From: an uncultured Lachnospiraceae bacterium
GTDB taxonomy: Bacteria > Bacillota > Clostridia > Lachnospirales > Lachnospiraceae
Length of the DNA: 64,000 nt
Reading direction: 5' to 3'
Assembly (NCBI GenBank): GCA_902776305.1
Contig: CACYPS010000003.1
Span: 164,779-228,778, forward strand
In this document: in pieces, positions 7,130 to 44,398 of the stretch
Layout of the letters: every line of letters begins with the position of its first letter
Position numbering within the stretch: the stretch's first letter is position 1
The notes under the pieces: model-generated
Database searches by the model: none
Seen by the model: the letters and a program-made list of their open reading frames with translations, nothing else
What the model was told of the DNA's origin: nothing
Made by a program: the position numbers and the translations under genes

Positions 7130-7131
7130 CC

Positions 7132-7151
7132 GTAATAAACCTCCTTATTAC
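7132..7151 (-). promoter_or_regulatory. Ribosome binding site in a hairpin loop, start of the fusion gene
   Basis: On the minus strand GTAATAA and TTATTAC form a 7-bp stem whose six-base loop is GGAGGT, the Shine-Dalgarno sequence itself. The start codon lies two bases beyond the stem. Exposure in a loop should keep the site accessible; whether the stem regulates anything is unknown. Confidence 0.55.
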
Positions 7152-7279
7152 AAGTTCTCTTCTGATCTTCTGTCTAGTTCATATGCGCTTCCCTCCAACG
7201 CGCCATGCGCAAAACGAAGGCCATATCATCTAATATGCTGACGAACCGTGTCCGATCAGAATGAGGAGTGCTGGTCATT

Positions 7280-7288
7280 ATTATAACA
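7280..7288 (-). promoter_or_regulatory. Extended -10 promoter element of the fusion gene
   Basis: TGTTATAAT, an extended -10 (TGnTATAAT), reads on the minus strand about 150 bases before the start codon. No good -35 is present, as is usual for extended -10 promoters. The 360-base gap 7130-7489 contains this promoter, the leader with the hairpin at 7132, and the terminator of dsdA. I see nothing else in it. Confidence 0.55.
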
Positions 7289-7406
7289 TAAAAACAATGT
7301 GTATACATTTTATTCACGTTATATCTGCTGAAAATTGTATACAATCTGTTTTCAAGTCACGTATTTTAGTCCTACCGGGACGACTTGTCAACTGTTTTTG
7401 CATACA

Positions 7407-7450
7407 AAAGCAGGTTATAAAGAGTCACACGGGAGCTTTCCACCTGCTTT
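7407..7450 (-). terminator. Probable terminator of dsdA
   Basis: AAAGCAGGT and ACCTGCTTT pair over a 26-base loop that can fold further (AAAG/CTTT). Read on the minus strand it ends in TTTTG. The U-tract is short, so efficiency is uncertain. Confidence 0.5.
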
Positions 7451-7489
7451 AGAAGACGTTCCCGTTTCCTTTGAAGCGGCTTCCGCTGC

Positions 7490-8764
7490 TCATGGCATCA
7501 GTCCTCCCCCTGTCGCCCAGACAATGTGTGTTGCATCAGACATGAGATCCGAGAGTCCGTTTTCTTCAAGATACTTTACAAATAAACTGTCGGTGCGTTC
7601 AATCTCCGAAAGTCCCCCGAAACCGGCACACGCCGACGGCTCAAGACGTATTCCCTCCGTCTCGCTGATCTTGCTTTGATACTCAAGCATTCTCTCGTCA
7701 GATACCGTGAAGACGCCTGACACGAGGCTTTCCATCATATTGCACACAAAACCCGAAGGTCTTCCGACCGCAAGGCCGTCGGCCACTGTATGCCCTGTAA
7801 GCCCTATATCCTGAACACTTATTTTTTCATGCTGACCGCTTGCCATCCCGACCAGCATGCACGGTGCTTCGACAGGTTCTGCAAAAAAGCAGTGGACATT
7901 CGATCCGAACAGTTGCTTAAATCCATAAGTGATACCTCCCGGAGCTCCGCCAACTCCGCAAGGCAAATAGAGGAACAGCGGATGTCTTGCATCCACGGGA
8001 ATACTCCTCTTTACCAACTGTACAGAGACGCGCATTGCAGCCGTAGCGTATCCGAAGAAAAGATCTTCCGAGTTCTCATCATCTATGAAAAAGCTGTTCG
8101 GATCAGCTTCCGACTCCTTCCGTCCGTTGGCAACAGCCTGGCTGTAATCCCCGGCATACTCCCTGACAATGACGCCTTCGCTCCTGAGCAGATCCTTCTT
8201 CCATTGTTTTGCATCACTTGACATATGAACTATAGCACGAAATCCGAGCCGCGCAGCAGTTCTTCCGATACTGATTCCGAGATTCCCGGTCGAACCTACC
8301 TGAATCGTATACTGACTATAGAATTCACGGAATTCATCCGAATCTATTTTTGAGTAGTTCTCGGTAGGCCAGAGCATTCCCGCTCTCTGTGCCAGCGTCT
8401 CCGCAATCTTGAGGACTTCATGAATACCGCCTCTCGCTTTTACGGAACCTGCGATGGGCAGATGTGCATCGTCTTTCAAGAAGACCTGGCCGCCAATATT
8501 CGCTCCCTTTCCGTTCAGCCATTCCCGCATCCCGGGAATGGGAATGAGATCGGATTCAATAATCCCTTTTCTTGCCTCCGTCTCCGGGAATGCACTTGCA
8601 AAATAAGGCATAAAACGCATGAAACGACTCTGTGCCGCTTTCATATGCACGAACTTGTATCCGTTCCGCTCAAATCGCGGAGCCACATGCTCACGGCCGG
8701 GATTCAGCCAGAGGGTCTCTTTTCTCTCCTCGAGGTCTTTAATAATACCGTCAGCGATACTCAT
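7490..8764 (-). CDS. dsdA: D-serine ammonia-lyase
   Basis: This 424-residue PLP enzyme deaminates D-serine to pyruvate and ammonia. The PLP-binding Lys109 is in the DsdA signature PIAGSVKARGGIHEV, and a Gly-rich cofactor loop PCGVGGAPGG follows. The length is close to E. coli DsdA (442). GGGAGGAG precedes the ATG at 8764. No DsdC-type regulator or D-serine permease is adjacent, but the NSS transporter (3.2 kb) and the racemase/amino-acid importer (59-63 kb) are other amino-acid genes in the window. Detoxification or use of D-serine as a carbon source are the usual roles. Confidence 0.93.
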   Translation of the reverse strand: MSIADGIIKDLEERKETLWLNPGREHVAPRFERNGYKFVHMKAAQSRFMRFMPYFASAFPETEARKGIIESDLIPIPGMREWLNGKGANIGGQVFLKDDAHLPIAGSVKARGGIHEVLKIAETLAQRAGMLWPTENYSKIDSDEFREFYSQYTIQVGSTGNLGISIGRTAARLGFRAIVHMSSDAKQWKKDLLRSEGVIVREYAGDYSQAVANGRKESEADPNSFFIDDENSEDLFFGYATAAMRVSVQLVKRSIPVDARHPLFLYLPCGVGGAPGGITYGFKQLFGSNVHCFFAEPVEAPCMLVGMASGQHEKISVQDIGLTGHTVADGLAVGRPSGFVCNMMESLVSGVFTVSDERMLEYQSKISETEGIRLEPSACAGFGGLSEIERTDSLFVKYLEENGLSDLMSDATHIVWATGGGLMP

Positions 8765-9179
8765 GTGTTCTCTCCTCCCATACAGTCAGGCGACTTTTGA
8801 TTCGACTAAATTTTCTGCTGTTCATCTCGGAAGACTAATTCGTCTTGAATGATCAACACCCACCGCTTCATATGATAAGTTTACCAGAAGTCGATTACAG
8901 ATTGTTCCGTGCTTACGCGCTCCCACAATCCTGTAATCATTATATTCCCATTCTATGGACTTAAACAGACTTAATTGAGAAAACCGGGAGTATTGCGCGA
9001 TGAAGAATACATCTTTTGATTCTCGTTTCCGTGATTCAGACCTGCTCTTTTCATGGATATTCCGACAGAAAATTTACAAAAAAATTATGTCCTAGAGTAT
9101 AATAATAAGTAGCTAAAACTTCCCCTACCACAGGGCTTAGTTCGCCTCATCGAAATTATGCTACGCAAGGAGGAACAAC
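8765..9179. other. Intergenic region between divergent dsdA and the protease gene
   Basis: This 415-base gap contains no convincing small gene. It carries small hairpins, for example AAGAC-TAATTC-GTCTT near 8831, and a segment near 8996 (TTGCGCGATGAAGAATAC) that nearly repeats at 44474. It also holds the plus-strand promoter at 9073-9103 and the site AAGGAGG before 9180. Confidence 0.5.
9073..9103 (+). promoter_or_regulatory. Candidate promoter of the subtilisin-like protease gene
   Basis: TATAAT at 9098-9103 with TTTACA or TTACAA 18-19 bases upstream. The leader is about 70 bases and ends in AAGGAGGAACAAC before the ATG at 9180. The spacer is slightly long. Confidence 0.5.
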
Positions 9180-12100
9180 ATGAGACACAAGTCACTCATC
9201 AATAAGCTGACCGCCGCCTTCATGACAGTCTGCCTGACAATCGGAAGCGCAGGAACGCTGCCTGTCACGGTTTATGGCGAGGGAGAAGGAACCGACACTA
9301 CTGATATCATATCAACCGATTCACCGGATTTTGACATCGACGAAAAGGTGGCTGACCTTCTCGCACAAGGTGACTACGAAGAAGGGCGCGCCATTGTCCT
9401 CTATGACACGGAGAGTCCTGTCTCCGATGAGGAGCTTGTCGGTGCCGGAGATCTCATCGCCGGTGCCGAGCAGATCGCGGAAGTCAGTGCGGAAAGCTAT
9501 GTGAACGCGACAGGAGAAACTCTTCCGATTCCCGACGGAGAGCTTGTCGGCGCATCATCCGATTCCGCAGACGATGACCGTATTGCAATCCTTGTGGTTG
9601 AAGATCAGAGCCGTTCAACGGAAGAACTTCTGCGTGAACTCTTATCTGACCCGCGAGTTCTGAGTGCGGAACCTGACTATATATTCAGTGTCAATTCCGT
9701 CGATCAAGATGGTCCCTCTGACGAGCTTCTCGAGAATACCGCTGTTATACCTGATACAGAAAGCAGCACAGGCTCCGAGGCGGAACCGTTCGTTCAAAAT
9801 CCATCTGTGAGCATCCCGGAAGATGAATACGCACTTCAGGACAGTGACACAGATTATGATATGGATGATGAAACTGTCACATCAGACACTGCAGATCTGT
9901 CTGTTTCCGGCAGAGATGTTGCAAATATCGATGGATCGGGCAGTGCTGATCAAAGTGCCGATGCCCTCGTCTCAGACGATGCAGAAGAAGAAGTCATTGT
10001 CGGCGCATCCGGAGACCTGACGCCATATCAGTGGGGAATGTCCGACGGAAAAAATCGTTATGCGGGAGCAATGCTTGAGGACACAGAAGTCTACAGTGTG
10101 AATTCTCCTAACTGGAATACCGTCGGTGCCACCAACGCCGAGGGCGTCATCGCCGTCATAGACACCGGTATCGACCATACTCATCCTGACTTAAAAGACA
10201 ATATGTATGTCATCCCGGATTCCGTGCAGGAGAAGCTCGATTGCGGAGAATATGGCGTCAGCACCCTGATAGGCGTTCGTGACAAGACAGACACAATGGA
10301 TGTGGACGGACACGGGACACACTGTGCCGGCATAATAGCCGCTTCCTGGAATAATAAAGGTGTAAGCGGTGTCACCTCAGGCGCCAAGCTCATAGCTGTC
10401 CGGGCACTCGATGATAAAGGTTCCACAACATACTCCGCTATACTTTTTGCACAGGCATTTGTTCAAAATGCAAAAGAAAACGGAATTGATATAAGGGCTA
10501 CGAGCAATTCTTACAGTGTCGATGCACCCAACTATGCTTTGCGCGTCATGATCGAAGAACTCGGAAAACTCGGTATTATCTGCGTATTTGCAAGCGGAAA
10601 TGAGTCATCTTATATAAATCTGCTTGAACAAAGCACAAATCATATATGGGATCTCCCGAACGTGGTTATTGTCGATGCATCTGCCGAAAACGGAGATAAG
10701 GCATCATTTTCGAACTTCAGCCAGAATCAGACGCATATATTTGCTCCCGGCGTAAATATCCTCTCCACAGTACCGACAGCAGGTTCAGACGAAGCGCCGA
10801 TAGATTATTTTGCTGAGCTGGATGATGCCCCGCTATATACGGATCCCTCCTGGAAGAATCTTGGCTCAGACATGATAGCCGGTGTATCGTTAGACTGGCT
10901 GGAATATCCCTACTTTGACTACTTTCAGGTCACGCAGATTACAGATATATCTTCCTGCGGTCAGACGCCTGCGCTCCGATTCAAGCTGCTGAAAGATGTA
11001 CCTGCCGGCAAGGAAATGACTTACTGTTTTCTTATCCCCGTGGGAAAAGATGCACCTGTTGCCTATGTCTCTGCGGATATTCTCACGCCTGACAGCAACA
11101 CAACAACCACGCTTCGAGTCCGCACACGAACTGACGGCGATACAATGAATGACGTATCAAGCAGCGTAAGAGAAGACCATTATGATTGGGTGCACCGGTC
11201 GGTAATAGACCTGGATAAAAACGGCAGAACTATAGATATGGTCGATGATGTCTATCTTCCTGTTTATATCGATCTGAGCAAAAACGATAATTCCTCACTG
11301 AAGGCCGGAGAATATGTTTACATTGATAATATTTGTGTCGGTTCCTCGTCCTATAGGAACGATCAGACAGCCTTCGGAATCATGAGCGGAACATCCATGG
11401 CGACGCCGTTTGCAGCCGGTATGGCTATGGTTCTCTATAAAGGCAAAGAGGTAAACCGCCAAAATGCCAGCCTTCTCGCAGCAGGTCTGCAGGGACTGGT
11501 GCGTACAAAAGATTCTCTGGCAGGTTACTGCACTTCCGGCGGCGTTCTCGACTACTCGGTAGACTCTAATGCGATGCTGCCTGTCATAAATTCGGCGACT
11601 CTGAACAGCACCGACCGCACTATCACATTGGCCGGATATTTCTTCGGGAACAGAGGAACACTATCCTCCGTAAATCTGGCAGGAACAGATCTTGAAATCG
11701 TCAGCTGGAGCAACAACGAGGTAGTGGTAAAATGCCCCGACCGGATGGCTTCCGGTCTTCAGAAAATAGTATTGACCGATGCGGGCGGTCTGACTACTCG
11801 CAGCGCATTCAGCCTCACAGTTCCGGAAGATTCTGAAATCGAAGACACGGCTACAGAGCTTTATGAAACAACACTGCCGGATATTCCTGCCGATGTGATC
11901 GGTGTGGATGAATCAATTTGCAATGTATGCGGTCTCAATGATACGATATACATCACAGCAGGCAAAACATATGGAAGCGGACTCTATGCAGAAAAATTAG
12001 TCAGTTATTCGATCAAGGATAAGAAATGGAAAGTCGTTGCTACTATTCCCGAAGAAGGTCTCACGGACTGTTCTATGGCTGCATATCAGGGAACTATCTT

Positions 12101-13712
12101 CCTGAACGGTACAGATGTTGACGGTATAGCCTACCTGTATTACTACTCACCTTCGAAGAAAGACTGGTACTTGCTCGAAAAATCCGGCGTTGCCGATGCA
12201 ACGATTGTCAGTTTTAAGAATAGTCTCCTTTCCATAGGCGGTTCCTCCTTAAAAACTGCCAGCGAAATACGTCTGATAGATGTATCCACAGGAAAAGCTA
12301 ACGTACTTGCAGATCTCGGATACAAGATCGCACGTGCCCAAACCGCAGTTTGCGGTGATACGCTTTGCCTCTACGAAGGTTATGTATATAATGAAGAAAC
12401 CAATAAGTGGAAACAAGATCAGTATGGGATGGCTTGCTACACAATAAGCGACAAGGGTATCAGCAGAGATGCGGGGAAAGAAATAGAAATCAATTCCCTG
12501 CTTATGAAGGGTTCTGAAGCTCTCCTGAGTACAATATGCGCTTCTGACGAGGACATATATCTTGTCGGTCTGCAGCTGAGTCAGGATGCATCAGGTTCTG
12601 TAATCGATCCTTCCGGCTATCAGGTTGCAGACGGAGATACATGGGTGTATTCGGATCAGATGAAAAATCTGGGCAAACGCCTGTCCCACACAATCGTGAC
12701 ACATCCGAAGGCTGTCGTTTACAAAGGCATACTCTACGGTTTCGGTCTTAACACGCAGGACGGTAATCCCACGACATATGTAGCTCGCGCCACCGTAGTT
12801 GATGAAACCCCCGATACCCCGATTCAGGATACAATTAAGGTAAAAATCCCGAAGGCAAAAAAGGGACTTATATACAACGGAAAGTCCCAGACAGGCGTTC
12901 CGGCAAGTGCTGAAGGTTACTATAATATCAAGAATAACAGGAAGACTGACCCCGGAACATACAAAGCCCGGGCAGAACTCATTGATCAGGATTATCTTGT
13001 CTGGGAGGACGGAACATCAGCCGCGAAGACCATAACATGGTCAATCGCCCCAATCTCAGTCACAGGCGTGAAACTTGATAAAACAAATCTCACCGTTTAC
13101 GCAGGCACCACCGGGCAGCTCAAAGCAACGGTCATCCCTTCCGAAGCAAACAATAAGGCCGTAACATGGAAGAGCGCAGATACGACAATAGCGAAGGTCG
13201 ATCAGAGTGGCAAGGTTACAGGCGTAAAGGCAGGCACAGTCAAGGTCACGGTAACAACGAAAGACGGTTCGAAGAAAGCCACATGCACGGTTAAGGTCAT
13301 CGCAGGTATACCTGTCTACCGACTTTATAACGTTAAAGGAAACGGAGATCATCTGTTCACGACAAGTGCCTATGAAAAGAACACTCTGACACTCCGTGGC
13401 TGGAAATATGAGGGCATTGCATGGTATGCGCCGAAGACTTCATCCACCGCAGTCTATCGATTCTATAATTCAAACAACGGAACTCATATGTACACCAAGA
13501 CTGCTGCAGAACGTACAGCCATGACAGGAGCCGGCTGGAAGCAGGAAGGAATTGCTTTCTATTCCTGCACGGACAGCAGCAAGGTCCCGGTTTACAGATT
13601 ATACAATCCAAACAACGCTCAGCACTTCTTTACGAAAGCTGTTTCGGAGAAAAACACTCTTGTGAAAGCCGGCTGGAAGTATGAGGGAATTGGATTCTAT
13701 GCATTGCCTTGA
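9180..13712 (+). CDS. Giant secreted subtilisin-like (S8) protease with propeller, Big2 and DUF5648-like repeats
   Basis: The 1510-residue protein begins with a signal peptide (about 1-33). Residues about 55-180 look like an inhibitory propeptide ending in VLSAEPDYIFSVNS, then an acidic linker follows. The S8 catalytic residues are Asp328 (VIDTGID), His378 (DGHGTHC), oxyanion Asn474 (ASGNES) and Ser739 (SGTSMATPFAAG). The 260 residues between Asn and Ser are far longer than in subtilisin and contain an inserted beta-rich domain. After the catalytic part come an IPT/TIG-like domain (about 800-880), a Kelch-like propeller region (about 890-1220), a Big2 Ig-like domain (about 1291-1375) and three repeats of about 45 residues with YRLYN, HLFTT and GWKYEGI motifs (1377-1510). 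There is no LPxTG or membrane anchor. A secreted or wall-associated protease is the likely role; the substrate is unknown. Confidence 0.9.
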   Translation: MRHKSLINKLTAAFMTVCLTIGSAGTLPVTVYGEGEGTDTTDIISTDSPDFDIDEKVADLLAQGDYEEGRAIVLYDTESPVSDEELVGAGDLIAGAEQIAEVSAESYVNATGETLPIPDGELVGASSDSADDDRIAILVVEDQSRSTEELLRELLSDPRVLSAEPDYIFSVNSVDQDGPSDELLENTAVIPDTESSTGSEAEPFVQNPSVSIPEDEYALQDSDTDYDMDDETVTSDTADLSVSGRDVANIDGSGSADQSADALVSDDAEEEVIVGASGDLTPYQWGMSDGKNRYAGAMLEDTEVYSVNSPNWNTVGATNAEGVIAVIDTGIDHTHPDLKDNMYVIPDSVQEKLDCGEYGVSTLIGVRDKTDTMDVDGHGTHCAGIIAASWNNKGVSGVTSGAKLIAVRALDDKGSTTYSAILFAQAFVQNAKENGIDIRATSNSYSVDAPNYALRVMIEELGKLGIICVFASGNESSYINLLEQSTNHIWDLPNVVIVDASAENGDKASFSNFSQNQTHIFAPGVNILSTVPTAGSDEAPIDYFAELDDAPLYTDPSWKNLGSDMIAGVSLDWLEYPYFDYFQVTQITDISSCGQTPALRFKLLKDVPAGKEMTYCFLIPVGKDAPVAYVSADILTPDSNTTTTLRVRTRTDGDTMNDVSSSVREDHYDWVHRSVIDLDKNGRTIDMVDDVYLPVYIDLSKNDNSSLKAGEYVYIDNICVGSSSYRNDQTAFGIMSGTSMATPFAAGMAMVLYKGKEVNRQNASLLAAGLQGLVRTKDSLAGYCTSGGVLDYSVDSNAMLPVINSATLNSTDRTITLAGYFFGNRGTLSSVNLAGTDLEIVSWSNNEVVVKCPDRMASGLQKIVLTDAGGLTTRSAFSLTVPEDSEIEDTATELYETTLPDIPADVIGVDESICNVCGLNDTIYITAGKTYGSGLYAEKLVSYSIKDKKWKVVATIPEEGLTDCSMAAYQGTIFLNGTDVDGIAYLYYYSPSKKDWYLLEKSGVADATIVSFKNSLLSIGGSSLKTASEIRLIDVSTGKANVLADLGYKIARAQTAVCGDTLCLYEGYVYNEETNKWKQDQYGMACYTISDKGISRDAGKEIEINSLLMKGSEALLSTICASDEDIYLVGLQLSQDASGSVIDPSGYQVADGDTWVYSDQMKNLGKRLSHTIVTHPKAVVYKGILYGFGLNTQDGNPTTYVARATVVDETPDTPIQDTIKVKIPKAKKGLIYNGKSQTGVPASAEGYYNIKNNRKTDPGTYKARAELIDQDYLVWEDGTSAAKTITWSIAPISVTGVKLDKTNLTVYAGTTGQLKATVIPSEANNKAVTWKSADTTIAKVDQSGKVTGVKAGTVKVTVTTKDGSKKATCTVKVIAGIPVYRLYNVKGNGDHLFTTSAYEKNTLTLRGWKYEGIAWYAPKTSSTAVYRFYNSNNGTHMYTKTAAERTAMTGAGWKQEGIAFYSCTDSSKVPVYRLYNPNNAQHFFTKAVSEKNTLVKAGWKYEGIGFYALP

Positions 13713-18747: not shown

Positions 18748-19938
18748 TCAAATGTTAAGATTGACAAACAATTCTTTTATTTCATCGCTCTTTTTCTTGT
18801 CTTCGGAAATCATTTTCAGGGGATTTCCTCTCATTATGCTGAAATACAGATACCGGATTAACTGGTATCCCCATGCAAAAGGTCTCAGGAGCAGATTATT
18901 CCTCGCAGCAGGCATACTGTATTTACTGCTATAATTCAATCTGTCCAATAATCCTTTGATTCCTTTGGATTCTGACATAAGCTTTACGCCCCTGTTCTCA
19001 AATGCACCTTTTTTTCCGAAATCTCCCTCACTAATCAGGTATTCCAGAAGTTGTCTGCACGATGAAGAATCAGCATCCCTGCACCATGTCAATTCATTAT
19101 TGAGCCCAAAACATCTCTGACAAACTTTTGTCATGACTTTTGCCAGGTCCTTCAAATGCACTTTTTCTGCTTCCGCACAAAAGTGCTCTTCCCAATACTG
19201 ATCTGACAGATAATGATCCGCGTACACCATCCAGTCGAGCAAGTGCCTGATTCCTACCCCTTCGCGCATATGCCCCGCAAAATGAATCAGAAGTGTCATC
19301 CCGTTTTGAAGGGTCGGCAATACAGGAAAACTGTATCTATCTACTTCTACATTCTCGACGTTGTCCAGTCCGTGACTGAAAAAATCAATCAGCGCCTGTG
19401 ATTCCGGACTGCCATCCATTTTTGCACCGCCCGGTCTTTTGTGTAACTCAAAAACAACATCATCTTTAGCTAATACAACATGATACTCAGCCTTATCAAG
19501 TTCTTCTGTTTTTGAGTAACCGTTATCCAGAAGCAGTTGATAAACACTTTCATATTCATCCTCTCTGACCAGAAAATCAATATCTCCGCTTTTCCGGAGC
19601 TCCGGTACAGGATAAAGCACGGCATTGGCCATGCCCTTCATGATTGCAAAGTCAAAACCCGCTGAAGAAAGCAGATTGACCAGCTCCTGTTGACAGTACA
19701 TCAACATATACCAGCTGCTATATTGCTCAATGACCGACTGTGACCATTCCCGGTCTAAATCGGTATCAGTAAACGATCCTTTTCTTTTTTTGTAGATCTC
19801 ATATCCAAGAGGTGCCACCGCCTGCTGACACATGTCCCTATATATTGCCCACCAGTCCGGTTCAGCCGAAAGATCAGCTTCACCACCGCTCAAGGCCTCC
19901 TTTATGATCTCTATTTCATCCCGTTCTGTCTGATTCAT
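18748..19938 (-). CDS. Nucleotidyltransferase family protein (PF14907-like)
   Basis: This 396-residue protein has the nucleotidyltransferase core KGMANAVLYPVPELRKSGDIDFLV at about 103-126, where GDIDFL provides the catalytic Asp pair, followed by YHVVLAKDDVVFELHKRPGG. The family is called uncharacterised nucleotidyltransferase. Members occur in exopolysaccharide loci and in kinase-bearing lasso-peptide loci, where they act as tailoring enzymes. Here it closes the minus-strand glycan operon, 55 bases after the flippase. The RiPP-like locus lies 21 kb away, so a link with it is only suggestive. GGGGGAA precedes the ATG. Confidence 0.8.
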   Translation of the reverse strand: MNQTERDEIEIIKEALSGGEADLSAEPDWWAIYRDMCQQAVAPLGYEIYKKRKGSFTDTDLDREWSQSVIEQYSSWYMLMYCQQELVNLLSSAGFDFAIMKGMANAVLYPVPELRKSGDIDFLVREDEYESVYQLLLDNGYSKTEELDKAEYHVVLAKDDVVFELHKRPGGAKMDGSPESQALIDFFSHGLDNVENVEVDRYSFPVLPTLQNGMTLLIHFAGHMREGVGIRHLLDWMVYADHYLSDQYWEEHFCAEAEKVHLKDLAKVMTKVCQRCFGLNNELTWCRDADSSSCRQLLEYLISEGDFGKKGAFENRGVKLMSESKGIKGLLDRLNYSSKYSMPAARNNLLLRPFAWGYQLIRYLYFSIMRGNPLKMISEDKKKSDEIKELFVNLNI

Positions 19939-21562: not shown

Positions 21563-22612
21563 TCAACCGTTATATAGCAATTCCGGGACTGCGTCCTCAA
21601 GATAACGGATCTCTCTCTCATATTTTGTTGAACGCTTGTACTGTCTCATGTATTTATTCTTAGTCTTCGGATCAAAATGTTTTCCCATTTCAACATGATC
21701 TTCTGACGAAAGTTCGCAGAATTCTTCTACCTTTGAAACCGTCCCTTCGTAATCTTCGAAGAGGTCTTCATAATATATACGCAGTACCTGTTTCTCATCG
21801 CCTTCCGGTTTTTCAATCTCCCTCACCCGCTTCATGAATGCTGCAAACTCTTCTATCTTGATCGGTACCGGAGATTCAGCGTCATAGTGATCCAGGCGAT
21901 GACGCGCCTCCACATAGACATCGCGGATATCACGGTTCATCACGATCACACGAAGCTCTTTTTCTGATATGTATTTACTCAGTCTGAATAAATTCTGCGG
22001 AAGAAGAAAATGATCCAGTAAAAGTACGCCCTTCGATGTGCCCCGGCACAGATTCAGATAAGCACGGATAAATTTACCCGCTGCCGCATAAAACATCTCC
22101 TCTGTTGGAAACGCATATCTTGTGAGCCCGTCATCGTACTTCTTTTTGTAAGTAATATTTTCAAAAAAGTTCGCACTGTACGGCTCTTTTTTCAGACGGT
22201 GCATCGCACTGGAAGCGGTATGCTTGACCGAGAACTTCATTTCTTCATCGTAATACCATTTTGCCTGAAGTGTAAATTCGGTAAGATCATCTATCAAAGC
22301 ATCGACAGCTTCCATAAATGACGGACCAAATCGTTCTTTATAATTACCGTACCAGCCATAATTGTTTTTATAAAGATTACTCATGGCTTGATAGAAAGCA
22401 TTGAGTGCTTCATCGGAACGGTGTATATTGTTCCCCCTGAGCAGCTTGTCTTCCATATCGAAAAGACCATCCGGCATGTAAAGCGGCAAATGCTCACAGG
22501 GATTTTTCTCCAGAACACCTGCTGTAGTAGTACGATATTCTGTCAGAAGATGATATACCGCCGATGAGCCGGTAGCATAATAACCTGTTGGTGTAATTGC
22601 TAGATTACTCAC
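21563..22612 (-). CDS. Sulfotransferase-like protein
   Basis: This is a 349-residue protein without signal peptide. Near the N-terminus TPTGYYATGSSAVYHLL resembles the PAPS 5'-phosphosulfate loop. Later VIVMNRDIRDVYVEARHR resembles the 3'-phosphate-binding motif (RDxRDV), and a RIYYEDLFEDYEGTV helix follows as in sulfotransferases. It would add sulfate to a sugar of the repeat unit. The start is GTG at 22612 and overlaps the preceding stop by four bases (GTGA). I see no PAPS-synthesis genes in the window. Similarity is motif-level, so another P-loop group-transfer role remains possible. Confidence 0.68.
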   Translation of the reverse strand: MSNLAITPTGYYATGSSAVYHLLTEYRTTTAGVLEKNPCEHLPLYMPDGLFDMEDKLLRGNNIHRSDEALNAFYQAMSNLYKNNYGWYGNYKERFGPSFMEAVDALIDDLTEFTLQAKWYYDEEMKFSVKHTASSAMHRLKKEPYSANFFENITYKKKYDDGLTRYAFPTEEMFYAAAGKFIRAYLNLCRGTSKGVLLLDHFLLPQNLFRLSKYISEKELRVIVMNRDIRDVYVEARHRLDHYDAESPVPIKIEEFAAFMKRVREIEKPEGDEKQVLRIYYEDLFEDYEGTVSKVEEFCELSSEDHVEMGKHFDPKTKNKYMRQYKRSTKYEREIRYLEDAVPELLYNG

Positions 22613-39390: not shown

Positions 39391-41091
39391 TTGAAGAAAT
39401 ACTGGGAACAAATCAAAGAATTATACGGAAAGCGGGATCTGGCCTACGCCAGCCTCTTCTGGCTTTTCTCGCAGGCAGGACCGTACACAAAACAATTGCT
39501 GGTGAAGCTGGGCATCAGTACTTTTACACTTGCAATGGGCTTCGCAGGTACTATCGTCAGTAAATACATCATTGACGCCACTACCTCCGGCTCACTCAAC
39601 TGGACCTATGTCACATACATGATTTTGGCTGCCGTCTTCACAATTCTGTTCTCAGCCGTAGCGGATATATTCGACTCCTATATCAGTGAAAAGTTCGAAT
39701 TCGGTATGAGATGTGATATGTTTAATCAAATCCAGACAGGTGTATGGAACGAGCTTTCAAAATACCATAGCGGTGATATCGTCACCCGTCTGACCACAGA
39801 CATTTCGACGATTTCATCCGGACTCATTTCTATTATCCCCTCCGCCATCATCATGGGCCTGAGACTGCTTATATCCTTCTGCATACTTTTCTATTTTGAC
39901 CGCTGGCTGGCAATCTTTGCACTGTTCGTCGCTCCCATCGGTGCAATATGTGCGCTTCTTTATCGCAAGAAGTACAGTTATTATTATAACAAACTGCGCG
40001 ACACAGAATCTTCCTATCGCACATTCATGCAGGAAAGTCTGTCGAATATCGCTGTTATTAAGACCTTCCAGCTGGAAGCTGATAACATGAATTACATGAA
40101 AAACATAAGAAGTGAGCGCATGAGTCTGGTCATGAGCAGTTCCAGGCTCAGTGCCCTTATGTCCGCTTTTATCAGCCTGGTATACAGGACTGCCTATGTA
40201 GTTGCATTCTGTTGGAGTGCATACCGGATTTCCACCGGACAGATCACTTACGGAACAATGACTGTCTTTCTGTCTCTGGTCTCCCAGGTCCAGGGTTCCA
40301 TATCTTCACTCGGTTCGACTATACCGGAGCTCTACCGGATGCTCATCTCTGCAAGACGCATCACGGATATCGTGGATATACAAAACGAAGACTATAAGGA
40401 TATAACTTCTGTTCCCGAACAGGTTTCGGTGGAAATAAAGGACATGACTTTTTCCTATGACAGAAAGAAAAATATACTGGAACACCTGTCGCTTACCGTA
40501 AAGCCGGGTGATATTGTGGGCATTGTCGGTCACTCCGGTGCCGGAAAGACTACTCTGATACGCCTGCTTCTCTCACTGCTCAAACCGGATGAGGGAAGCG
40601 TCGAGTACATTGATGAGAACGGAAACAGGGAGAACGCACAGCCCGCCTCAAGACGTTTCATATCTTACGTTCCGCAGGGAAATACCCTGCTCTCCGGGTC
40701 GATTGCACAAAATCTGAGAATGGGCAAGAAAAATGCCTCCGAGGAAGAGCTCTGGGAGGCACTCCGAATGGCAGATGCAGATACATTTGTAATGAAAACA
40801 GAAGACGGTCTCGACACAAGACTGACAGAGAAAGCCGGCGGTCTCTCGGAAGGGCAGGCCCAGAGAATCGCCATCGCAAGAGCCCTCATCCGCAACAAGC
40901 CTCAGCTCATTTTGGATGAGGCGACAAGCGCACTGGACGAAGATACAGAATCAAGGATACTCTCACGGATAACGAAGAGTTACGGTAAGACCATCTTCAT
41001 CATCACTCACAGGCGATCCATGCTGCGCTACTGCAACCGTGTAATAGAACTCGGTGATGACGCCACTGCCACAATCAGAGACTTGAAATAA
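39391..41091 (+). CDS. ABC exporter, fused membrane and ATPase domains
   Basis: A half-transporter with six membrane helices and one ATPase domain: Walker A GHSGAGKTTL, signature LSEGQAQRIAIARA, Walker B LILDEATSALD and H-loop ITHRRS. I propose TTG 39391 as start (566 residues) because GGAGG lies five bases upstream; the open frame extends to 39301 without a site. There is no N-terminal C39 peptidase, so leader removal would need another enzyme. The convergent genes to the right form a putative peptide-modification cluster with a peptidase, and this protein is the obvious exporter candidate. Export of a lipid or glycan intermediate is the alternative. Confidence 0.85.
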   Translation: MKKYWEQIKELYGKRDLAYASLFWLFSQAGPYTKQLLVKLGISTFTLAMGFAGTIVSKYIIDATTSGSLNWTYVTYMILAAVFTILFSAVADIFDSYISEKFEFGMRCDMFNQIQTGVWNELSKYHSGDIVTRLTTDISTISSGLISIIPSAIIMGLRLLISFCILFYFDRWLAIFALFVAPIGAICALLYRKKYSYYYNKLRDTESSYRTFMQESLSNIAVIKTFQLEADNMNYMKNIRSERMSLVMSSSRLSALMSAFISLVYRTAYVVAFCWSAYRISTGQITYGTMTVFLSLVSQVQGSISSLGSTIPELYRMLISARRITDIVDIQNEDYKDITSVPEQVSVEIKDMTFSYDRKKNILEHLSLTVKPGDIVGIVGHSGAGKTTLIRLLLSLLKPDEGSVEYIDENGNRENAQPASRRFISYVPQGNTLLSGSIAQNLRMGKKNASEEELWEALRMADADTFVMKTEDGLDTRLTEKAGGLSEGQAQRIAIARALIRNKPQLILDEATSALDEDTESRILSRITKSYGKTIFIITHRRSMLRYCNRVIELGDDATATIRDLK

Positions 41092-41162
41092 TATGTTCAG
41101 GTCCCGCACGCAAGAGCCGGCACTTGAAATAATATGTTCAGATCCCACACGCAAGAACCGGC
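41081..41162 (+). repeat. Tandem 41-bp duplication spanning the ABC exporter stop codon
   Basis: 41081-41121 and 41122-41162 are the same sequence with a few substitutions. The first unit contains the exporter's last codons (ACTTGAAATAA), so the end of the gene and its stop exist twice. Confidence 0.85.
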
Positions 41163-41185
41163 ACGAAGCTTAAGCTTCGCGCCGG
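41158..41185. terminator. Hairpin between the convergent exporter and peptidase genes
   Basis: CCGGC-A-CGAAGCTT pairs with AAGCTTCG-C-GCCGG, one mismatch, with no loop other than the turn at the centre. No clear U-tract on either strand; it may act as a transcription barrier for both. Confidence 0.5.
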
Positions 41186-41230
41186 CTGACAAGATTCTGA
41201 ATATTTCCGATTCGAGCGCTTCGGCGATCA

Positions 41231-41710
41231 TTAAGACCTGTCGGGAAAAACAGATCTCTTAACATCACCGATCTTCTGCCGCAGCTTTCTGTATCGGACA
41301 TATACAGGCCTTTTCCACTTGCTGCTCAGCCAATTCAGCCCTTTTTCACGCTGCTCGTCGCAGTCAAGTATATATTGCTTTCCATCTCTCTCGTAGGAAA
41401 CCGCAAGGCCGAAAACGGAAGATCTGGGGATCGGAGCATCCGGATGCTCTGCGTTATCTCCCCAGGTCATGACCGTATTACCATCATCGAGAGTTTTATA
41501 TACCCTGTGACAGACATAAGCCCCGTCCGTTCTTTTAAATAAAACAACGTCCCCGGGAACCGGTTTTCTTTCAATGGGTACGAAAGTGACCGGGTCCTTA
41601 TAGACGCGAATCAGCGGCTCCATGCTGAGTGATGTCAAGCTTGTTGTAATCGGGATCTTTGTGCCTTCCTCGGCGAGACGTCTCCACTCCTCAAGAGAAA
41701 GCTTGACCAT
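41231..41710 (-). CDS. Small S26-type signal peptidase-like protein of the peptide cluster
   Basis: This 159-residue protein has the S26 nucleophile motif TSLSMEPLI (Ser29) and the following box PVPGDVVLFKR. A His (VCHRVY, His68) lies where ER/SipW-type signal peptidases use His instead of Lys, then TWGDNAEHPD. It has no membrane helix, unlike housekeeping signal peptidases, so it probably acts in the cytoplasm or with a partner. It begins ten bases after the HPr-kinase-like/PqqD gene and is the last of the minus-strand cluster. The precursor encoded upstream contains an Ala-Ser-Ala site that fits this specificity. Its role in leader removal is inference. Confidence 0.78.
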   Translation of the reverse strand: MVKLSLEEWRRLAEEGTKIPITTSLTSLSMEPLIRVYKDPVTFVPIERKPVPGDVVLFKRTDGAYVCHRVYKTLDDGNTVMTWGDNAEHPDAPIPRSSVFGLAVSYERDGKQYILDCDEQREKGLNWLSSKWKRPVYVRYRKLRQKIGDVKRSVFPDRS

Positions 41711-41720
41711 ATATTATTCC

Positions 41721-42842
41721 TCAATCTTTCTCAATCACGCCATACTCATCGAGTTTTGTAAGCAGATTATCCAGATCCTTTGCCGCAACGCTCTCCTCCA
41801 CCTCATACTCATCGAGAATAGCAGTGAGGAGGTCATCTCTGGAAACGGGTGCCTGCATCTTTTCCCATATAAAAGCAGCCACACCACTCAGCAGAACCGT
41901 CCCCTTGAATTTTCCGATATTTTCGTCAGTCGGCATCAGAATCTGCTCACCTGCAATATTTCTTAATACAAAACCACCTTTAGCCTTCATATCCGTTTTC
42001 TCCTTTTTATATTTTCCTGCTTCCAGTGCTTTTCTGAGTTCTACTGCCGATTCCGGATCGGGTCCGGAAAAGCCTCTGAGAATCTTAGCACGTGAAGCCA
42101 GCTTTGCAATATTGGTCATCTGGATGACCGCTGTTTCAGTGTCCCACATGGGGATAAAGCATTCCTGATACAAAAGTCTACGCTTTTGTTCATAGCTCAT
42201 CTCCCTGATATAATTCGATTTTTCCGATCTGCGGACCTCAATTATGGTATTGAGCGGATGATGCACGTTTCGGAAGCATTTTTCTTTCCCGTCCCACGGC
42301 ACACCGTATACCTCCAGATTCTTAACGTCTATCAGAGGCCTGTCGCCGCTTATCAATTCTGCTCCGAACGCTTCTTTCCACGCTTCTGCTCTGGTAGATT
42401 TGCCTGTGCCGGACGGTCCGCTGAACGCTATGGCCATATCTTCCAGCTGTATACAGGCAGAATGCAGAGAGACATATCCGTGACGAACCAGCAGGCATTC
42501 CAGAGCCATGCGGATCAGAACCTCTTCCAAAGAGTATTCTTCATCAAATCCTATATCTTCCGCTTCCTGTTCTGAATATGTTCTTTGACCGACCAGTTTC
42601 AGTTTTTTATAGTCCTCGCTAACCACAAGACCCATCTGATCGTCGAAGACGGCATGATAGAACCATCCCCCGTCGATCTTATGCTGTATTATATAACTCG
42701 ACCTTACCTCTGTTCCCTGCGGTGCATCTTCCTCCGAGATGACCAGAGAGACATCAGCGGGTTTCGGTTCGGTCTTAAAGTTTTCAAATGACGGAAGGAC
42801 GATCTCAGATTCAAATACTATGTCTGCAATTTGATAATACAA
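41721..42842 (-). CDS. HPr-kinase-like P-loop domain fused to a PqqD-like peptide-binding domain
   Basis: A 373-residue protein in two parts. Residues about 110-265 resemble the HPr serine kinase core with P-loop FSGPSGTGKST (140-150), preceded by a mostly beta N-terminal region. Residues about 286-373 are PqqD-like (FVLRNIAGEQILMPTDE, then a helical pair ending LDEYGVIEKD), the RiPP recognition element that binds leader peptides. HPr-kinase homologues modify peptides in paeninodin-type lasso loci. The start is probably TTG 42842, which follows GGGAGGAG. A frame extending to 42944 would run into the hairpin behind the precursor gene. Confidence 0.82.
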   Translation of the reverse strand: MYYQIADIVFESEIVLPSFENFKTEPKPADVSLVISEEDAPQGTEVRSSYIIQHKIDGGWFYHAVFDDQMGLVVSEDYKKLKLVGQRTYSEQEAEDIGFDEEYSLEEVLIRMALECLLVRHGYVSLHSACIQLEDMAIAFSGPSGTGKSTRAEAWKEAFGAELISGDRPLIDVKNLEVYGVPWDGKEKCFRNVHHPLNTIIEVRRSEKSNYIREMSYEQKRRLLYQECFIPMWDTETAVIQMTNIAKLASRAKILRGFSGPDPESAVELRKALEAGKYKKEKTDMKAKGGFVLRNIAGEQILMPTDENIGKFKGTVLLSGVAAFIWEKMQAPVSRDDLLTAILDEYEVEESVAAKDLDNLLTKLDEYGVIEKD

Positions 42843-42931
42843 TGCGCTCTTCTCCTCCCTGTCGGCAAGCGTATTCCGGCATTGCCTGCTCATTACCGGA
42901 CTGCAAACCCACATTCTTTCGGGAACTAAAG

Positions 42932-42963
42932 AAGGGCACCTCAACCGCAGTTCAAGTGCCCTT
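42932..42963 (-). terminator. Leaky terminator or attenuator behind the precursor gene
   Basis: AAGGGCAC and GTGCCCTT pair over a 16-base loop, followed on the minus strand by CTTTAG. It starts 16 bases after the peptide stop. The weak U-tract fits partial read-through, so that more precursor than enzyme message is made, as in many peptide clusters. Confidence 0.65.
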
Positions 42964-42978
42964 TGTTTTCAATATGTT

Positions 42979-43152
42979 TTAGTTCTTGTCCGGATTGCAG
43001 CCGTGTGAACTGCCATGATAAGTAACTACTCTTCCGCAACCTCTGCCGTTGCCCCAGTCACCGTGATCCTTGCCGCCTGCTGATGCGACTACAGACTTTG
43101 AATAATCAAAATTAAGACGCTCTGCATCCGGCGTTGAATATTCTTTTTTCAT
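42979..43152 (-). CDS. Putative RiPP precursor peptide, 57 residues
   Basis: A strong ribosome site (AAGGAGG) precedes ATG 43152. The peptide starts MKKEYSTPDAERLNFDY, containing Tyr5-x-x-Pro8, the leader motif bound by PqqD-like domains in lasso-peptide systems. An Ala23-Ser-Ala25 before Gly26 looks like a signal-peptidase-type cleavage site. The remaining 32 residues would be the core: rich in Gly (9), with His30, His47, His50, Trp33, Tyr45 and two Cys (39 and 52), ending NPDKN. It lies between a radical SAM/SPASM gene and the PqqD fusion and has its own promoter. I recognise no known precursor family. The product and its modification are unknown. Confidence 0.72.
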   Translation of the reverse strand: MKKEYSTPDAERLNFDYSKSVVASAGGKDHGDWGNGRGCGRVVTYHGSSHGCNPDKN

Positions 43153-43203
43153 TGTTGCCTCCTTATATCAATATCTAACAATCCTCTTTGTATACTCTAT
43201 CAG

Positions 43204-43232
43204 ATAGTATCACAATGAAAATTATTCTTCAA
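43204..43232 (-). promoter_or_regulatory. Promoter of the precursor peptide
   Basis: On the minus strand: TTGAAG, exactly 17 bases, TACTAT. It lies between the radical SAM stop (43250) and the precursor, giving a leader of about 45 bases. The precursor can therefore be expressed apart from the radical SAM gene. Confidence 0.7.
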
Positions 43233-43249
43233 CACTATTTTCATATTTT

Positions 43250-44398
43250 TCATTGTTTGCATTCTTCGATTTCACGTATACCGTGTTTTACCAGAAACCG
43301 TGCCCGTTCACAGATCTTGGTCGGACGTTTTCCGAGAACTGCATACTGCGTCATATTTGCCGGACAGTTATCACACACAGCGTAATAAGGACATCCGTCA
43401 CATTCAGCAACGCGCGGCCAGTTATTACAGGCGGTATTGATCTTCTGCCAGGAGGACGCAAGTCCCTCCCTGAGCGGCAGCATTTCAACCTCCGTCAGTC
43501 GGTTGCAGGGATACATTTTGCCGTCCCAGGTTATGACGAAGCCCGATCTTCCTCCTCCGCATTGAACCCCGCGTTTTGTGCGGTCAGAGGACCCGCCTCC
43601 CGGGGGCGGGAGCTGCTCATCGGGTATCTCTCTCCCCGGTATCCCGTCGATTTCCTGAAGTACGCGGTAGATATGAACATACTCTTCCGAAGTCAAATCA
43701 AAATCCAGTCCGCTTCTGCCGGTATCTTCTCTCGGATCGAACAGTTCTGTATTAATTCTAACATCCCGACACAGACTCTTGGCAAGCCTGACAGTATCTA
43801 TCATTGAATCTCGCAGAAAAGCGTTTGGCGTTATCGCTATCCGAAGCGGCAAGCCGGCCTCGGATACACTTCTGATATTCTTCAAAACCTTATCAAAGGC
43901 TCTTCGCCCGGTGACCTTTTCATAGGATTCGTCATCATTACCGTACAATGTGATCTGTATACCGGCAGGCATATGTTTTTCGAAAAAGCTGACCCATTTC
44001 TCATCGAGCATCTCGCCGTTCGTCAGCACATTGACCTCACACCCGAGGCTGTGAAGATACAGAAACAATTCCTCGAATCCCGGATATAGCAGACATTCGC
44101 CGCCGGTCAGTGTCGCCTGATACATACCCAGTTCATATGCCTGGTGAATAAGACTTTTCCATTGATCCGTCGTTAACGGAGCGCGGCCGCGCATTTGCTC
44201 CGCAGATAAATGCGTATAGCACATCTTACAGTCGAAATTGCATAGCGGGGTGAGTTCAAATTGTCCGTGAATCGGGACGCCCTTTATACGTGCCCTCTGC
44301 TCCAGATACTCGGCAAAGTCATCAAAGGTACTCTCCTGCCCTCCACTCTTCTTTCTCAGATTATCCAGGAACTCCAGTCCGTTTTTCGGGTTTTCCAT
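43250..44398 (-). CDS. Radical SAM/SPASM peptide-modifying enzyme
   Basis: This 382-residue protein has the radical SAM motif CNFDCKMC (Cys53, Cys57, Cys60; Cx3Cx2C) after QFELTP, the GGE motif TLTGGECLLYPGFEEL, and a SPASM-type C-terminus with CGGGRSGFVITWDGKMYPCN and a cluster CDGCPYYAVCDNCP. Such proteins bind two or three iron-sulfur clusters and form thioether, C-C or epimerised linkages in peptides. It is immediately upstream of the precursor. An N-terminal segment of 45 residues lacks an obvious recognition domain, so the PqqD domain in the fusion may serve it. Confidence 0.9.
   Translation of the reverse strand: MENPKNGLEFLDNLRKKSGGQESTFDDFAEYLEQRARIKGVPIHGQFELTPLCNFDCKMCYTHLSAEQMRGRAPLTTDQWKSLIHQAYELGMYQATLTGGECLLYPGFEELFLYLHSLGCEVNVLTNGEMLDEKWVSFFEKHMPAGIQITLYGNDDESYEKVTGRRAFDKVLKNIRSVSEAGLPLRIAITPNAFLRDSMIDTVRLAKSLCRDVRINTELFDPREDTGRSGLDFDLTSEEYVHIYRVLQEIDGIPGREIPDEQLPPPGGGSSDRTKRGVQCGGGRSGFVITWDGKMYPCNRLTEVEMLPLREGLASSWQKINTACNNWPRVAECDGCPYYAVCDNCPANMTQYAVLGKRPTKICERARFLVKHGIREIEECKQ

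Follow-up and report, generated by a model that had tools for sequence, protein, structure and literature searches.

A putative radical SAM peptide cluster with a kinase-like/PqqD fusion and a Sec11-like peptidase in a Lachnospiraceae genome

We analysed a stretch of 64,000 nucleotides (the window; C3:164779-228778) from the 4.08 Mb draft genome (G000) of an uncultured, gut-type Lachnospiraceae bacterium. It carries a cluster in which a short gene for a 57-residue peptide lies between the genes for a radical SAM/SPASM enzyme and for a protein that joins an HprK/PEPCK-like P-loop domain to a PqqD domain, with genes for a Sec11-like S26 peptidase and an ATP-binding cassette (ABC) exporter alongside (Table 1). 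An original prediction, made from the letters of the window, had placed these genes and the 57-codon peptide gene here, and open reading frame (ORF) calls and profile matches confirm them. The fusion gene is likewise present, with one correction: its start is probably TTG 42842, behind GGGAGGAG, rather than 42944, because residues 1–24 of the longer form have a predicted local distance difference test score (pLDDT) of <50 and the sister proteins begin nearby. Residue numbers for this protein follow the longest ORF.

Table 1. Features of the cluster (positions in the window)
Feature	Position	Strand	Basis
ABC exporter, fused transmembrane region and ATPase	39391..41091	+	PF00664, PF00005; convergent with the cluster
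Proposed leader peptidase (S26 type, Sec11-like, soluble)	41231..41710	-	Catalytic boxes, SEC11C profile match, model
Fusion of HprK/PEPCK-like P-loop domain and C-terminal PqqD	41721..42842	-	PF05402, model; 42944 is the start of the longest ORF
PqqD / RiPP recognition element domain	41733..41948	-	PF05402, fusion residues 333-404; 5v1v TM 0.81
Possible partial terminator: hairpin separating the precursor gene from the kinase gene	42932..42963	-	Fold; sequence kept in L046
Precursor peptide, 57 amino acids	42979..43152	-	Ribosome site, leader common to sister clusters, third-position-only changes
Radical SAM/SPASM peptide maturase	43250..44398	-	CxxxCxxC, seven SPASM Cys, SkfB match

The gene order, which the original prediction had proposed to seek in other genomes, is kept whole in G407, a genome of the same genus: its locus L046 has the ABC, S26, kinase–PqqD fusion, peptide, radical SAM and PlsC genes in the same succession. 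The two peptide genes differ at four bases, each at a third codon position, and codon comparison of the two loci gave dN/dS values of 0.0075/0.086 for the peptide, 0.027/0.29 for the fusion, 0.025/0.27 for the S26 protein and 0.049/0.34 for the radical SAM enzyme. Conservation of the small gene beside the same genes, on which the original prediction had been staked, was found at L046 (98% identical peptide), at L057/L058 (by BLAST) and, through the leader pattern, at L048, L063 and L080. L057 and L058 come from two genera and have identical radical SAM proteins and identical precursors. There, the kinase-like domain is joined to the radical SAM domain (621 amino acids) instead of PqqD, and a precursor resembling that of the window lies between the kinase–radical SAM and PqqD genes (BLAST E 1e-4, seven-protein reference set). 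This exchange of fusion partner suggests that kinase, radical SAM enzyme and PqqD work together. A paralogous cluster, L047, lies on contig C65 of the same genome (identities of 41% for the radical SAM protein, 27% for the kinase-like protein and 36% for PqqD). Beside it is a gene for a double-glycine-type peptide (L047 11123-11365, - strand; LSEENLEQVVGG), accompanied by two ABC proteins of 725/727 amino acids (L047 3852-8231, + strand).

The radical SAM protein matched PF04055 at 72 bits. Its score against the Pfam SPASM model was 17.5 bits, below the cut-off of 21.5; all SPASM cysteines are nevertheless present, and CxxxCxxC and the seven SPASM cysteines are invariant in 24 of 24 aligned radical SAM proteins. 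The Pfam search reported no PqqD domain in the enzyme itself. Six distinct sequences of solved structure passed E 1e-8, the best being SkfB (6efn, E 1e-22), followed by 5wgg, two cytosylglucuronate decarboxylases, 5v1q and MoaA. In a tree of 69 rows, the window enzyme grouped with L046 (100/99), then L057/L058 (100/97), then L047 (99/87); L048, L063, L080 and L128 joined next (100/100), and some branches elsewhere were long. Matches at E <=1e-20 were found in 7 of 42 genomes of the genus, the host's own included. At E 1e-70, the window branch was found in 3 of 392 genomes of the order and 2 of 391 of the class, the host genome being counted in both; the branch itself is therefore rare. We rejected a defence viperin, as the PADLOC pVip scores of 19–57 bits reflect the common radical SAM core and the enzyme has SPASM. 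Judged by sequence, the enzyme likely modifies the precursor.

The precursor gene is preceded by a strong ribosome site. Its leader spans approximately residues 1–25 or 26 (YSTP...F...VVASA|G, with YSTP at residues 5–8), and its core is rich in Gly and His, has two cysteines and ends in Asn. For comparison, we used 60 stretches around fusion or radical SAM matches, mostly the better ones, together with the best 80 of at least 210 confirmed named loci; loci without a kinase-like gene (L084, L093, L107 and L109) were excluded from motif, precursor and enrichment counts, and L084 and L093 also from the leader alignment and neighbour rates. Across 140 loci, the window left out, small ORFs that had a ribosome site and [YWF]xxP close to their start were enriched around the core genes, with 70 of 264 within 1.5 kb versus 13 of 278 at 3 kb or more, and such an ORF was present in 43 of 58 radical SAM loci versus 15 of 82 loci without a radical SAM gene. 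We aligned 70 distinct precursors (6 of the window branch, 48 of other radical SAM systems and 16 others) from the Pro, without gaps, and they have a lasso-like pattern in common, YxxP...F...[IV]A[AS][CG]; the YxxP motif is associated with lasso leaders. Counted from the Pro in the 48 other radical SAM precursors, position +2 is hydrophobic in 94%, +7 in 94% (Phe/Leu in 37) and +13 in 96% (Ile/Val in 37), whereas small residues occupy +14 to +17 in 73–92%; the 16 others obey the pattern less strictly. The small-residue box in the window is VVASA|GG. Within the window branch, the [YWF]xxP precursors (window, L046, L048, L057, L063 and L080; L058 equals L057) have exactly two cysteines in 6 of 6 cases. 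A few rows retained in the precursor listing, at L146 and L161, are likely chance ORFs.

The fusion protein matched PqqD (PF05402) at 47.5 bits against a cut-off of 23.4, and HprK-related models weakly (E 1e-4 to 3e-4); Pfam and NCBIfam searches reported neither TIGR00679 nor Hpr_kinase_C for it. Its predicted structure reached a mean pLDDT of 84 (74–76 for the other four models) and a predicted template modelling score of 0.71, and Foldseek returned 43 matches at E <=0.001 to chains of PEPCK, HprK and lasso B1 proteins. The kinase part matched PEPCK and HprK at E 2e-6 to 1e-3 with low template modelling (TM) scores and a high root-mean-square deviation (rmsd), and the PqqD part superposed on the TbiB1–leader complex 5v1v with a TM score of 0.81 and an rmsd of 2.0. 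In PHROGs, the fusion protein had two weak matches to nucleotide-binding families (E 0.005-0.007). All 16 aligned kinase-like proteins have His161, the Walker A Lys182 and Asp201 without variation. Recognition of the leader by the PqqD domain is likely.

The S26 protein matched TIGR02228 at E 6e-11 (42.4 bits, below the cut-off of 51.85) and Pfam S24 at 18.2 bits (cut-off 23.3), and a profile search found SEC11C (7p2q, E 1e-5) and SEC11A (E 7e-5). Ser29, Met30, Pro32, His68, Arg69, Gly84 and Asp85 are invariant in 26 of 26 aligned peptidase rows. In the model (pLDDT 92), the first helix spans residues 6–14 only, with no membrane anchor, and Foldseek matched LexA and SpsB at E 0.003-0.02, a weak match to the S24/S26 fold. 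PHROGs matched neither the peptidase nor the precursor peptide. Like the Sec11/SipW signal peptidases, the protein has the invariant Ser, His-Arg and Gly-Asp boxes; unlike them, its model lacks an anchor and its gene lies among peptide maturation genes. Removal of the leader by this Sec11-like enzyme is likely. The domain assignments of the original prediction are supported: PqqD over its cut-off, the SPASM cysteine set, the S26 catalytic boxes and the HprK/PEPCK-like fold.

The exporter gene starts at TTG 39391 behind GGAGG, and its product matched ABC_membrane at 102.7 bits and ABC_tran at 105 bits. No C39 peptidase was among the 14 Pfam families reported for it, and C39-type export was rejected. 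The ABC copy adjoining the L046 cluster is 95% identical, and the one near the paralogous L047 70% identical. On the 3' side of the peptide gene, 42905-42985 folds at -26.2 kcal/mol (z -3.55), and the stem-loop is unchanged in L046; a simple terminator scan did not list this hairpin. Such a hairpin is as expected if the peptide is produced in excess of the downstream enzymes.

These proteins belong to a wider family. Matches to the fusion protein, either domain counting, occurred in 91 of 397 genomes of the taxonomic family at E 1e-5, and named relatives of the kinase-like protein (the best 80 of at least 210) come largely from gut Clostridia, including Lachnospiraceae, with some Prevotella and other groups. 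We named neighbour genes by their BLAST matches to a set of reference proteins (E 1e-5; the radical SAM label may take in distant members) at 49 loci (L055-L105, less the two without a kinase-like gene) and at the 80 named loci (L110-L189); L046-L054 derive from the radical SAM search and were not used. A radical SAM gene lay within 4 kb of the kinase-like gene at 21 of 49 and 27 of 80 loci, respectively, mostly from gut Firmicutes; the figures were 30 and 51 for S26, 38 and 50 for PqqD, 22 and 23 for PF14907-like genes, and 0 and 1 for a lasso cyclase. Eighteen proteins are fusions of the kinase-like domain, among them 11 PqqD–kinase, 3 kinase–radical SAM and 2 kinase–S26; the kinase–PqqD order occurs in the window and L046 only. 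A related type without radical SAM (L059, L074, L077, L090, L095, L100 and L141) has PqqD-first kinase fusions with ABC and S26 genes, PF14907-like genes in 5 of 7 cases, and peptides of about 115–150 amino acids with EGVYAASG or EGVYAGSG leaders. In Prevotella/Segatella, L137, L153, L166 and L184 combine kinase-like and S26 genes, with PqqD in three of the four, and L153, L166 and L184 have short MKKEYMKP- or MKKKIYEKP-type peptides nearby.

The closest described systems differ in composition. Paeninodin and pseudomycoidin lasso loci, described in passages of PMC8498205 and PMC9266682, contain a kinase (PadeK/PsmK), B1, B2 and C proteins and a nucleotidyltransferase (PsmN); HPr kinase is also mentioned for lasso clusters of anaerobes in a passage of PMC4289311. 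Like these loci, the window cluster has an HprK/PEPCK-like domain, a B1-like PqqD and a YxxP leader; PF14907 and a C-terminal Ser are further shared features in sister clusters. Unlike them, it has a radical SAM enzyme and an S26 peptidase and, by ORFs and Pfam, no asparagine-synthetase-like cyclase or B2 protease gene, an absence that the original prediction had reported, together with an S26-type protein in the protease's place. A complete paeninodin-type locus, L106 (G000 C18:28000-47000; 5327-12619), lies in the same genome: it encodes an ABC protein, a kinase with TDD, PqqD, a Transglut_core3 B2, PF14907 and an Asn_synthase cyclase, with Hpr_kinase_C, PqqD, Transglut_core3, PF14907 and Asn_synthase each above the Pfam cut-off. 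PF13471 matches lie elsewhere in the genome, on C18 and C59, with Asn_synthase on C18. As the genome thus has an intact lasso locus elsewhere, the cluster in the window stands as a system of its own.

The original prediction knew of no described class with this gene set. In the open PMC literature, we found nothing uniting HprK or HPr kinase, radical SAM and PqqD, no paper on HprK with PqqD and none on SynChlorMet, a search that leaves subscription papers uncovered and is not proof of absence. The combination is not rare, however, being one branch of a family that is widespread among relatives, and NCBIfam does list a radical SAM cassette under the name SynChlorMet. Like the window cluster, that cassette (ScmC, ScmE and ScmF) has radical SAM/SPASM proteins, and ScmC resembles the sister kinase-like protein of L063 (42.6 bits, cut-off 125). 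For the window, the models stay under their cut-offs (ScmF 63 of 400 and ScmE 50 of 400 bits; ScmC not reported) and, unlike SynChlorMet, it has a single radical SAM enzyme plus an S26 peptidase. Sactipeptide and ranthipeptide maturases (SkfB, StsB, PapB and 5wgg) likewise combine radical SAM and SPASM with a leader-bearing peptide; their models were below cut-off for the window enzyme (StsB 52 of 625 bits, PapB 43 of 340), and the StsA leader model reached one of six scanned precursors (L061, 19.2 of 42 bits). In PMC10885120, which reviewed leader proteases in 2023, the terms S26, S24 and signal peptidase do not appear in the main text; passages of PMC10352776, on Bacteroidales, name histidine kinases only, and in PMC12257519, S24 and S26 are figure numbers.

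The genes, domains, conservation and leader geometry of the cluster are solid. We think it probable that the cluster makes a ribosomally synthesized and post-translationally modified peptide (RiPP) that is guided by PqqD, modified by the radical SAM enzyme, trimmed by the Sec11-like peptidase and exported. Going by fold and motif, the PqqD domain would bind the YxxP leader of the 57-residue precursor; the radical SAM/SPASM enzyme would then modify the Gly/His/Cys-rich core, most likely by a crosslink through one or both cysteines; and the HprK/PEPCK-like domain, which is joined to the leader binder, would use a nucleotide on the same peptide, probably as a kinase. The soluble Ser-His-Asp peptidase would cut after VVASA|G, in the role of a B2 protease of lasso systems or of a C39 domain, and the ABC exporter, which has no reported peptidase domain, would release the product. 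In kind, this is an ordinary PqqD-guided radical SAM RiPP system; what is unusual is the combination of genes, which is the mark of a widespread branch.

Several observations weigh against this proposal. The ABC gene is convergent, and its link to the cluster rests on conservation. Both the HprK and the S26 assignments draw on weak sequence scores and models, and the S26 model had no Foldseek match at E <=0.001, the best being LexA at 0.0034. Among sister loci, 15 of 58 radical SAM loci have no [YWF]xxP ORF nearby, L128 yielded no precursor, and L047 has a candidate precursor without a strict YxxP and no S26 gene in the stretch examined, where contig C65 ends. In the kinase-like domain, Arg202 follows Asp201, replacing the second Asp of His-Lys-Asp-Asp (GDR versus DD), and the window precursor ends in Asn rather than Ser. 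In passages of PMC9266682, lasso kinases have His-Lys-Asp-Asp in common, all four residues being needed, and modify the C-terminal Ser. The phosphorylated product of the original prediction is thus not supported as it was stated, although phosphorylation remains plausible from the sequences; a kinase step on the window peptide at a site other than the usual C-terminal Ser has, in our estimate, a little under an even chance.

It is doubtful, but a serious alternative, that the domain is no longer a kinase and serves as a nucleotide-driven binding or release module that hands the leader-bound peptide from the radical SAM enzyme to the peptidase, leaving a crosslinked, unphosphorylated product. 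Consistent with this idea, among radical-SAM-linked kinase-like proteins (identical tails counted once), D-R or D-K occurs in 38 of 56 and D-D in 8 of 56; ADF/ADI labels (7 of 56) come from an early regular-expression match, L048 at least being really GDR. The Asn end of the window peptide and the alternation of the fusion partner between PqqD and radical SAM fit as well. By contrast, none of the 16 aligned proteins has lost the His, the Walker A Lys or the first Asp. Among sister precursors, 28 of 48 in other radical SAM systems end in Ser, versus 51 of 619 control ORFs, and 20 of 39 groups do so when C-termini are grouped by similarity (binomial p 3e-12, relatedness partly removed). With motifs read at a stricter position, 21 of 27 precursors paired with a GDR kinase have a Ser ending, versus 0 of 12 paired with GDK or NDD types, which looks as if a C-terminal Ser substrate had been retained; among the remaining 9 of 48 rows, with other or unreadable motifs, 7 end in Ser. 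The window branch departs from this pairing, with GDR in 5 of 6 and Ser in 0 of 6, and this speaks against a straightforward C-terminal Ser target in the window. The 28 Ser-ending sister precursors, from loci that include L061, L066, L068, L102, L120, L161, L178 and L187, have 62–156 amino acids and 2–6 cysteines, every one being longer than the 57-residue window peptide.

We offer, tentatively and as possible rather than probable, a reading in which phosphorylation is kept: the clusters would form a large, apparently undescribed RiPP family, found for the most part in gut Firmicutes and in a few Bacteroidota. In this family, a lasso-type leader would feed a radical SAM enzyme, an altered Asp-Arg HprK-like kinase would still phosphorylate a conserved C-terminal Ser and a soluble Sec11-like enzyme would remove the leader. 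The window would be a derived branch with a fused kinase and leader binder and a two-cysteine, Gly/His-rich core. If true, RiPPs would have a leader peptidase in a soluble enzyme that resembles signal peptidases, phosphorylation would reach beyond lasso peptides to radical-SAM-modified ones, and a function open to testing could be assigned to a family that is common in gut bacteria.

It is improbable that the small ORF is not the substrate and that the enzymes have a different peptide or protein as their target, such as one connected with polysaccharide genes. Genes for the capsule regulators Wzz, CpsB or CpsD do lie within 4 kb at 11 of 49 and 12 of 80 loci, and the window has a polysaccharide locus upstream of the cluster, but the ORF sits between the radical SAM and fusion genes, its leader is common to the precursors of sister clusters and it changes at third codon positions only. 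That the cluster is a lasso-type locus stripped of its cyclase and B2 protease, as the B1-like PqqD fold, YxxP leader and kinase-like protein might suggest, is very improbable and was rejected: the cluster has no cyclase, the intact L106 in the same genome has its own Hpr_kinase_C protein (a model not reported for the window protein), three lasso kinases keep DD and lack the GxPxxG-like motif (0 of 3, versus 54 of 56 radical-SAM-linked proteins and 79 of 81 without radical SAM), and in the tree the radical SAM clusters make up a large, separate group.

At L055 and L060, the kinase-like, PqqD and S26 genes lie directly downstream of CpsB, Wzz and CpsD (Pfam names from L055). The polysaccharide locus in the window, about 21 kb from the cluster, includes genes for a PF14907 nucleotidyltransferase (18751-19938, - strand) and a sulfotransferase (21566-22612, - strand).

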